Positions 7,178 to 10,023 of a stretch of DNA of 44,141 bases are shown here, piece by piece. Every line of letters starts with the position of its first letter. Positions within the stretch are counted from its first letter, which is position 1. Under the pieces are notes generated by a model. That model was not told the origin of the DNA. It saw nothing but the letters and a program-made list of their open reading frames with translations, and did no database searches. Where the stretch lies: positions 1-44,141 of the forward strand of contig CAJPUS010000050.1 of assembly GCA_905380995.1 (NCBI GenBank), written 5' to 3'. The position numbers and the translations under genes were made by a program. The stretch comes from an uncultured Flavobacteriaceae bacterium (lineage in GTDB: Bacteria; Bacteroidota; Bacteroidia; Flavobacteriales; Flavobacteriaceae).

Positions 7178-8263
7178 TTAAGAGTTTATAAATTTTGAAA
7201 TTAAACTATGAAAATGATGAATTGCCTCCTCTTTTGTAGGAGAAAATCTTCCAGTGGAATAATATCTTGATTCAAGACCCTTACTTACCTCTTGAACAAC
7301 AAATTCATCTTCTCTTTCAACCTTATCTATAAGTCCACCTGCTCCTAAATTATATTTACTTTCATCCATCATAAACTGAATAAATGAAACTTTTGTTCTG
7401 TTTTTATTAATTGGACTTACAACATTAATAGAAAGTCCCCATGGATAAAAATTAAGCATAAGGTTAGGAAATATCCAATAATAATATGCACTTATTTTCT
7501 TTCCGTAATCTTTATTTCCCTTGGGAATTTCAAATGAATCTTCATCATCTTTTGAATATCCAATCTGCAAATTATAATTATTATATATCTCTGTTTTATA
7601 GTTACTGATATCCAAAACAGAAGTTAATTCTTTGTGAACGAATGGAATATGGAATGGGTCTAGATAATTTTCGCAATAAATTGCCCAATTTGCATTGACA
7701 AGATGCTCTGAGGTTAAATCAGGTCTTTCAACCAAATTTTCAAATTTAAAAAAGGATAAACGATTAATTATTTCATCAAATATTTTTTGAATATTAAATT
7801 CTGGCTCCAAGCTTGTGAAAAAAAAAGGACCTAATCTTGAGACGGGAAATGTTTTTAAATTTTCGCAATCTCGTGGGAAATTTTTTGCCTCTTCAAAATC
7901 TGGCATAGATTTAAACTTCCCATCCAAATTAAATTTTCTACCATGATAAAGACATCTTAAGTTTTTTTGTTCACTTGGATTATGAACTATAATGTTTGCT
8001 CTATGTGTGCAAACATTTGATAAACAAGATATAGAATCATCTTGTTTTCTTACTAAAACCAACGGCTCGTCTATATAATTTGGAATAAATGTAAATGGAT
8101 AAAGGTTAATGTTTATTGGCAAAATATTCTCATATCCAATATACTGCCATGATTTTACAAAAATTTTTTCTTTAACAAGTTCAAAAAAATTATCGTTTTT
8201 ATAAAAGTCAGCTGGTAAGGTTTCAGCAATTTTAATATCTTTTTTAACCCTAATTTGTCTCAT
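7178..8263 (-). CDS. Rieske non-heme iron oxygenase, alpha subunit
   Basis: Rieske CTHRANIIVHNPSEQKNLRCLYHGRKF; mononuclear iron motif ENYLDPFHIPFVH. Confidence 0.88.
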   Translation of the reverse strand: MRQIRVKKDIKIAETLPADFYKNDNFFELVKEKIFVKSWQYIGYENILPININLYPFTFIPNYIDEPLVLVRKQDDSISCLSNVCTHRANIIVHNPSEQKNLRCLYHGRKFNLDGKFKSMPDFEEAKNFPRDCENLKTFPVSRLGPFFFTSLEPEFNIQKIFDEIINRLSFFKFENLVERPDLTSEHLVNANWAIYCENYLDPFHIPFVHKELTSVLDISNYKTEIYNNYNLQIGYSKDDEDSFEIPKGNKDYGKKISAYYYWIFPNLMLNFYPWGLSINVVSPINKNRTKVSFIQFMMDESKYNLGAGGLIDKVEREDEFVVQEVSKGLESRYYSTGRFSPTKEEAIHHFHSLISKFINS

Positions 8264-8342: not shown

Positions 8343-8858
8343 ATGGAAAGAAGAAAGTTTTTAAAAAATACCTGCCCAACAATTACTTTTGCTTTTTTTG
8401 GGCTATCATATATACAAGCATGTTCAAAGTCTGATGATGATACATCTTCATATAGTTCTAATAATTCAGACATATCACCAGACAATGCTTCAGGTAATAA
8501 CAATCAAACTGATAATGGTATAGTTTCAAGTGGAAACAATATTACTTTAGATCTAGCAAACTCTAATTTCAGTAGCTTATCAAGTCCTGGTGACTTTATC
8601 AACCTAACTTCTGTTGGAGTTTTAATTTTAAAAATTTCAAGTTCCGAATTTAGAGCTTTTGATAATTGTTGTCCACACAGTGGAACAAAAAATGATTGGT
8701 CGTATTCAAATGAAGAATTTACATGTGGAACTCATGGTAATAAGTTTGGTATTGAAGGAAATAATGTCGTAAATTGTGGTTCAGCCTCACGATCTGGTGA
8801 CCTAAAAACATATACTACTTCACTAGTTGGTGATAGTTTGACCATAACTACTAGTTAG
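8343..8858 (+). CDS. Rieske [2Fe-2S] domain protein with Tat-type lipoprotein signal
   Basis: MERRKFLKN twin-arginine start, lipobox-like YIQAC, Rieske cluster CPHSG...CGTHGNKF. Confidence 0.8.
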   Translation: MERRKFLKNTCPTITFAFFGLSYIQACSKSDDDTSSYSSNNSDISPDNASGNNNQTDNGIVSSGNNITLDLANSNFSSLSSPGDFINLTSVGVLILKISSSEFRAFDNCCPHSGTKNDWSYSNEEFTCGTHGNKFGIEGNNVVNCGSASRSGDLKTYTTSLVGDSLTITTS

Positions 8859-8859
8859 A

Positions 8860-9501
8860 ATGTATTACATAAAGTTTAAATTAATTTTATTAATTACTCT
8901 AATAATTTCTTCATCTTCATCTCTAAATTCTCAGGAATTTTCAGATGAGTTTGAAAGTCTTTTAAGTAATGATAAGCCATCCCTTCTTCCTGAAAAAATG
9001 TTAATAACCCAAAGAGTGCTCTGGGGAGAGAAGGGCTTGTTTAGAAAAACTGGTATTTCTAAACTGAATATTGAAAATAGAGAAAAAGAGCTTATTGTAC
9101 GTGAAAAAATGTTAAAAGCACACCAAATAATTGGATATATAACTTTTGCTGGTATGATATATCAGGGAATATTGGGTGGAAAGATGTATTATAGTGGTGA
9201 TTATAGTGTATACAGAACACATAAAACACTTGGAAAAATTGTAACTGCCTCATATTTTACAGGAGCTGGACTATCTTTATTTACTCCACCTCCACTCGTT
9301 AGCAGAGAAAGGAAAGGCTTAAACAACATTAGACTTCATAAGATTTTGGCAAATGTTCACATACCGGCTATGATTGTTACTAATATTTACTCTGATAAAC
9401 AACATGATGATAATAAATACAGAGAGATCCATAAAATATCTGCATACACTGCTGTAGCTAGCTATTCTTTTGCAATGATTTCAATAATGCTTAATTTTTA
9501 A
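8860..9501 (+). CDS. Predicted exported/membrane protein with four His-containing helices (cytochrome b561-like?)
   Basis: Signal peptide then four hydrophobic segments each opening with a similar His motif (KAHQIIGY, RTHKTLGK, RLHKILAN, EIHKISAY). Confidence 0.65.
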   Translation: MYYIKFKLILLITLIISSSSSLNSQEFSDEFESLLSNDKPSLLPEKMLITQRVLWGEKGLFRKTGISKLNIENREKELIVREKMLKAHQIIGYITFAGMIYQGILGGKMYYSGDYSVYRTHKTLGKIVTASYFTGAGLSLFTPPPLVSRERKGLNNIRLHKILANVHIPAMIVTNIYSDKQHDDNKYREIHKISAYTAVASYSFAMISIMLNF

Positions 9502-10023
9502 ATGAGATTACTAACTCTTATATTACTACTAACTTCATATAATTTGATTTCTCAAGAAATTAAAAGAATTGATAGTGATAGTTCTAGCATCAATTATTCT
9601 GGTAAACATTTTTTGCATAAATGGTCTGCAGAAAACACAAATATTTCAGGCTTAGTAAATGTTGAAGATGAAAATATTGTTAACATCGGAGTAATTGCCA
9701 AAGTGGCTGATTTTAAATCTGGAAACTCTAGCCTTGACAGCAATGCATTAAGAGTATTGGAAGCACTTCAATTTCCTAATATTATTTTTAAATCAGTTAA
9801 TATAGATAACCAAAATAAAGAGTTACAAATTGACGGATTGATTGAGTTTCATGGAATTGAAAAAAACATAAGTGTAATTGCTGAGCTAACTAAAATTGAT
9901 GACATGTATAGACTTAATGGTGAATTCACTATCAACTTGTCAAATTTTTTAATTGAACGACCGTCATTATTATTAAGAAAAATTGATGATGAAATTTTTA
10001 TAAAATTTAATCTTTTTTATTAA
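9502..10023 (+). CDS. YceI family protein
   Basis: Signal peptide; SSINYSGKHFLHKWSAENTNISG..., ADFKSGNSSLDSNALRVLEALQFPNIIFKS, LQIDGLIEFHGIEKNISV. Confidence 0.8.
   Translation: MRLLTLILLLTSYNLISQEIKRIDSDSSSINYSGKHFLHKWSAENTNISGLVNVEDENIVNIGVIAKVADFKSGNSSLDSNALRVLEALQFPNIIFKSVNIDNQNKELQIDGLIEFHGIEKNISVIAELTKIDDMYRLNGEFTINLSNFLIERPSLLLRKIDDEIFIKFNLFY

Follow-up and report, generated by a model that had tools for sequence, protein, structure and literature searches.

A recurrent Bacteroidota gene trio for a Rieske lipoprotein, a distant relative of cytochrome b561 and a YceI protein: a candidate redox device of the cell envelope

Three co-directional genes occupy positions 8343-10023 of the forward strand in the window, the whole stretch of 44,141 nucleotides from an uncultured Flavobacteriaceae bacterium that was analysed here. 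They code for a Rieske lipoprotein, a four-helix membrane protein and a secreted protein of the YceI family (Table 1). The ORF coordinates agree with the preliminary description of this DNA, which had placed the genes end to end with intergenic gaps of 1 and 0 nt. Its reading of the two outer genes also stands: the MERRKFLKN start, the lipobox-like cysteine and the Rieske [2Fe-2S] motif are all found in the first ORF, whose Pfam Rieske match lies above the cut-off, and the Pfam match of the third ORF identifies it as YceI.

The trio was compared in 49 loci. Sixteen related loci, recovered when prokaryote genomes were searched with the middle protein, form the marine group, a name read from the titles of their assemblies (uncultured Bacteroidetes, Flavobacteriaceae or 'Cryomorphaceae MED-G11'). 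The 33 further loci are from the wider phylum, and flanking genes were inspected. One marine locus, L015, has no Rieske gene in an assembly with ambiguous bases close by. The Rieske entry for this locus is the neighbouring oxygenase and no module protein, so the marine Rieske counts exclude it (n=15).

Table 1. Position in the window of the trio genes, of their motifs and conserved residues, and of other ORFs.
Feature	Position	Strand	Remark
Rieske [2Fe-2S] lipoprotein, Tat-like signal, 171 aa	8343..8858	+	Pfam PF00355 E = 2.9e-6, above gathering cut-off
RRKFLK, twin-arginine-like motif	8346..8363	+	RR in 15/15 marine Rieske copies
Lipobox-like Cys C27 (IQAC)	8421..8423	+	Invariant in marine clade; 27/28 distant copies
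Cluster ligands C110, H112, C128, H131	8670..8735	+	Invariant in all copies
b561-like four-helix membrane protein, 213 aa, signal-peptide-like N-terminus	8860..9501	+	b561 matches at family level
H88, start of helix 1	9121..9123	+	Invariant, 49/49
H121, start of helix 2	9220..9222	+	His in 16/16 marine copies; Lys or Gln in 8/33 others
H160 and H167, helix 3	9337..9360	+	Invariant, 49/49
H191, start of helix 4	9430..9432	+	48/49, lost only in L059
YceI family secreted lipocalin-like protein, 173 aa	9502..10023	+	Pfam PF04264 E = 3.9e-15
H36-x-x-H39 motif of module-linked YceI	9607..9618	+	48/48 linked copies
Ring-hydroxylating oxygenase alpha-subunit-like gene	7178-8263	-	Rieske and Ring_hydroxyl_A domains (Pfam)
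ORF of ~745 aa	16029-18272	-	No Pfam match at 1e-5
ORF of ~745 aa	21602-23839	+	No Pfam match at 1e-5

The cluster ligands of the Rieske protein are arranged in the motif C110-P-H112 ... C128-G-T-H131, and a Foldseek search recovered the Rieske fold with the Kuenenia Rieske protein as best match (PDB access code 9rk4, E = 7e-4). In motif and fold the protein resembles the Rieske subunits of bc1 and b6f complexes, including cyanobacterial PetC3 (5cxm). It differs from them in being lipoprotein-like, in lacking an adjoining gene for a bc1-type cytochrome b and in the loss of the canonical disulphide in the marine clade. Export by the Tat pathway is plausible from the amino terminus, and TatC is present in the window's genome; among distant members the second arginine of the twin-arginine motif is replaced in 10 of 25. 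The genome codes for only two Rieske proteins that could be found, the trio member and the neighbouring oxygenase. No bc1-type cytochrome b was found in this genome, which is 77% complete, and its incompleteness makes the missing bc1 weak evidence.

The marine and the distant Rieske proteins differ around the iron-sulphur cluster. The disulphide pattern of the bc1 type, CxHxxC...CxCH, is kept in 14 of 28 distant members and the GPA loop in most of them. The loop is lost in the marine group, and the second cysteine pair of the bc1-type disulphide is absent from the window protein and from all 15 marine copies. Two other cysteines, C109 and C145 (window 8670-8780), are found in every marine copy (15/15) and in none of the 28 distant ones. 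C145 sits at the place expected for the GPA loop, so that a relocated C109-C145 disulphide in the marine proteins is a reasonable guess.

Neither Pfam nor NCBIfam places the product of the middle gene in a family above cut-off. It reaches 15.4 bits against the prokaryotic cytochrome b561 family PF01292, whose cut-off is 30.1, and PF03188, the eukaryotic cytochrome b561 family, is not listed. Its relatives are more informative: at E <= 0.1, 13 of 31 family members match PF03188 and 11 match PF01292. When ten members were scanned singly, three of them, all distant, passed the PF03188 cut-off; the reversed sequences of the same ten gave no b561 match, so that composition does not explain the matches. 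These profiles make the family a remote relative of cytochrome b561, a relation that holds at family level only. Like the proteins of PF03188 and PF01292 it has four helices and conserved histidines, from which it is set apart by the signal-peptide-like amino terminus, by a conserved Arg/Trp stretch preceding helix 1 (W55, R62, R74 and R81) and by H121, which is not conserved outside some lineages.

Four long helices are present in the structure model (residues 71-112, 115-141, 151-176 and 185-212), which is of low confidence (pLDDT 63). That part of the preliminary label 'four-helix His-rich' can be kept on the model, but 'His-rich' is better replaced by a few conserved histidines, namely H88, H160, H167 and H191. 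Their conservation, on which the same description had laid weight, is borne out across the loci (Table 1). The position of conserved histidines at helix starts suggests that the protein binds haem. Since position 121 is a histidine in only 41 of 49 loci, it is doubtful whether some members bind a second haem. Were helix directions to alternate, H88, H160 and H167 would face one membrane side, and H121 and H191 the opposite one. Cytochrome b561 cores likewise have their histidines split between the two membrane sides. The charge distribution of the protein does not settle its topology. Foldseek searches with the weak model returned unspecific helical bundles, all with E > 1, and PDB sequence searches with profiles of the membrane family gave nothing usable.

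The membrane protein gene at locus L059 (G517:C1, about 5808000) is an unlinked second copy in its genome, with neither YceI nor Rieske neighbours. This is the only copy missing H191 and the only one lacking both neighbours; H121 is missing too, while H88, H160 and H167 are kept.

The YceI domain of the window protein scores 57 bits in Pfam, where the cut-off is 23.7, and was also recovered by a PDB profile search, which relates it to the lipocalin-like YceI proteins 1y0g, 5ixg and 1wub. Module-linked YceI proteins have in common Y32, H36-x-x-H39, N75 and D79, together with H117 in all but one. H39 also occurs widely among YceI proteins of other Bacteroidota loci, but H36, a histidine in all 48 linked copies, was found in only one of the 12 Bacteroidota YceI proteins examined from outside the module. 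This near-confinement of H36 to linked copies suggests that the role of these YceI proteins is tied to the module.

All three genes, identically ordered and with short gaps, occur in 15 of the 16 marine loci, the exception being L015. In the wider phylum the complete set was found in 28 of 33 loci; the remaining five have no Rieske gene nearby, and the Rieske protein would thus not be strictly required. YceI lies directly downstream of the membrane protein gene and co-directional with it in 48 of 49 loci. A Rieske gene adjoins the membrane protein gene in 43 (39 recognised by profile and four more by motif), and this adjacency spans 11 of 13 taxonomic families. Two families (f31 and f45) have the order membrane protein-YceI-Rieske instead of Rieske-membrane protein-YceI, and the set still stays together. 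The trio-bearing genomes that were checked have only 1-6 Rieske matches each, from which it is estimated that chance would place one within two genes in at most ~1/100 loci. The recurrence of the trio is far beyond chance.

In a phylum-wide sample, 32 of 396 genomes, among them that of the window, contain a match to a profile of the middle protein. The distribution of the trio is broader than the preliminary description supposed. That description had looked to conservation across Flavobacteriia, and the trio does co-occur in related genomes of the marine group and in distant Bacteroidota, but it is absent from 297 other sampled Flavobacteriales. Searches of Flavobacteriales found the middle protein in 0/297 genomes with the single sequence and in 0/247 with the profile, in overlapping samples and with nothing outside the window's own genome; general conservation in Flavobacteriia is rejected on these counts. 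In a tree of the middle protein, sequences cluster by taxonomic family, and the marine group falls next to families of the same class with moderate support. A tree that follows taxonomy argues for vertical descent with much loss and not for recent transfer, and the trio looks ancient and often lost. In a named record, Fibrella plasmid CP155472, the trio is annotated as a Rieske protein, a hypothetical protein and a YceI family protein.

Because the trio stays together across distant Bacteroidota families, the three genes very probably code for a single electron-transfer device of the cell envelope. Both the linkage of the genes and the redox character of their products are well supported. A small extracytoplasmic redox module apart from bc1, as first proposed for this locus, therefore retains the backing of the linkage, the b561-type signal, the histidines, TatC and the lack of a detected bc1 cytochrome b. 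One correction to that proposal comes from the precedent of LcoA-BcnA, which points to an antioxidant task at the membrane no less than to a respiratory chain (PMC9113575).

LcoA-BcnA of Burkholderia cenocepacia combines a cytochrome b561 with a YceI lipocalin for the detoxification of lipid peroxyl radicals, and its mutants show raised lipid peroxidation (PMC9113575). The b561 gene is found upstream of the YceI gene, the pair is linked or fused in many Proteobacteria, and the E. coli orthologues form a two-gene operon (PMC9113575). The authors proposed that the LcoA cytochrome returns a lipocalin-bound quinone to its reduced state (PMC9113575). The Bacteroidota trio shares with this system a b561-related four-helix membrane protein gene directly upstream of, and co-directional with, a gene for a secreted YceI protein, over a large phylogenetic range. 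It differs in the additional Rieske lipoprotein gene and in the membrane protein, whose family is divergent and whose window member scores under the b561 cut-offs. The trio may best be filed as a variant of the b561-YceI pair that would work like LcoA-BcnA, a membership that is not proven because the window protein is below those cut-offs and is known here from its sequence. The main text of the LcoA-BcnA paper makes no mention of Bacteroidota or of Rieske proteins (PMC9113575), and none of the papers searched names YceI, Rieske and cytochrome b561 together.

The favoured reading, with about even chances of being correct, is an envelope antioxidant relay by which a quinone or isoprenoid bound to YceI stays reduced. 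In the relay that we infer, from haem and YceI ligand to electron direction and antioxidant role, the middle protein would be a divergent membrane cytochrome of the b561 type. The Rieske lipoprotein, exported by Tat and anchored to lipid, would work with this b-type protein, and the secreted YceI lipocalin would hold an isoprenoid ligand, probably menaquinone. Electrons might then pass from the membrane quinol pool to the b-type protein, on to the Rieske centre and from there to the YceI-bound ligand. Kept reduced, this ligand would quench lipid peroxyl radicals at the envelope, making the trio a counterpart of LcoA-BcnA with a Rieske protein added. In L047 and L125 (Fibrella plasmid CP155472), both of one Spirosomataceae lineage, genes for Dps-like ferritins and a catalase come after the trio. 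This context, seen in that lineage only, agrees weakly with an antioxidant role.

In its fullest form the proposal is that of an undescribed and ancient three-component envelope redox complex of Bacteroidota, made of a new b561-like family, a Rieske protein and a YceI protein with the histidine motif, in which the marine Rieske proteins exchanged their disulphide for C109-C145. It is put forward tentatively, the balance leaning slightly against it. Should it hold, a phylum that abounds in marine and soil habitats would possess an envelope redox system so far overlooked; even a named record labels its middle protein hypothetical. The defence against lipid peroxidation described for LcoA-BcnA would be extended to Bacteroidota, with a visible electron path in the form of the Rieske centre. 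Haem spectra, EPR and gene deletion, the last with culturable Spirosomataceae at hand, would then also offer direct tests of what YceI does at the membrane.

The trio might instead serve a side-branch of respiration, as a reduced bc1 substitute in which the b-type protein oxidises menaquinol, the Rieske protein reduces a periplasmic cytochrome c or oxidase and YceI acts as a quinone shuttle. This is unlikely, yet it is the rival with most in its favour: the bc1-type features of distant Rieske members (the GPA loop, and the disulphide pattern in 14 of 28) fit it, as does the failure to find a bc1 cytochrome b in the incomplete genome of the window. The CxxCH-motif proteins encoded beside the trio in L051, L056, L057, L060 and L067 would also fit it. 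These have a single CxxCH and a Por secretion tail, one of them also a Reeler domain, and with such tail domains they look secreted, which speaks against the side-branch. So does the fact that b561 proteins are not known to act as bc1-like quinol oxidases, and the absence of the module from nearly all Flavobacteriales shows that the trio is no general bc1 replacement.

Doubtful, and less probable than a respiratory role, is a haem-free function in which the membrane protein and YceI handle an isoprenoid lipid, with the Rieske protein as sensor or accessory. YceI is more tightly linked to the membrane protein than the Rieske protein is (48/49 against 43/49), the fold search of the membrane model was unspecific and haem is a deduction from histidines, all of which would suit such a function. 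The invariance of the helix-start histidines, the b561 matches of the family and the persistent company of the Rieske protein speak against it.

It is very improbable that common ancestry alone keeps the genes adjacent and that they have no joint work. Evolutionary distances among the trio proteins correlate in a mirror-tree comparison with r 0.84-0.91, a value confounded by common species history, which would alone produce it. Descent alone accounts poorly for a set that is kept through rearranged gene order in 11 families at roughly 25-40% identity, and for linked YceI copies that carry a motif residue missing from other YceI proteins.

The least probable rival, with hardly any chance of being right, makes the trio the electron supply of the divergent ring-hydroxylating oxygenase, itself a protein with a Rieske domain whose gene lies directly upstream in 16/16 marine loci (40-94 bp between the start codons of the oxygenase and Rieske genes where both are present), and it is rejected on compartment, since the oxygenase has no visible export signal while the Rieske lipoprotein is by its sequence exported, and no such neighbour was found by motif in the distant loci listed.

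Another recurring YceI cluster was seen in several Flavobacteriaceae genomes. At L118, L119 and L121 module-free YceI genes are flanked by a second YceI-like gene and by a gene for a protein of ~420 aa with the conserved start ..LDN.R.PD..G...F..PKD.
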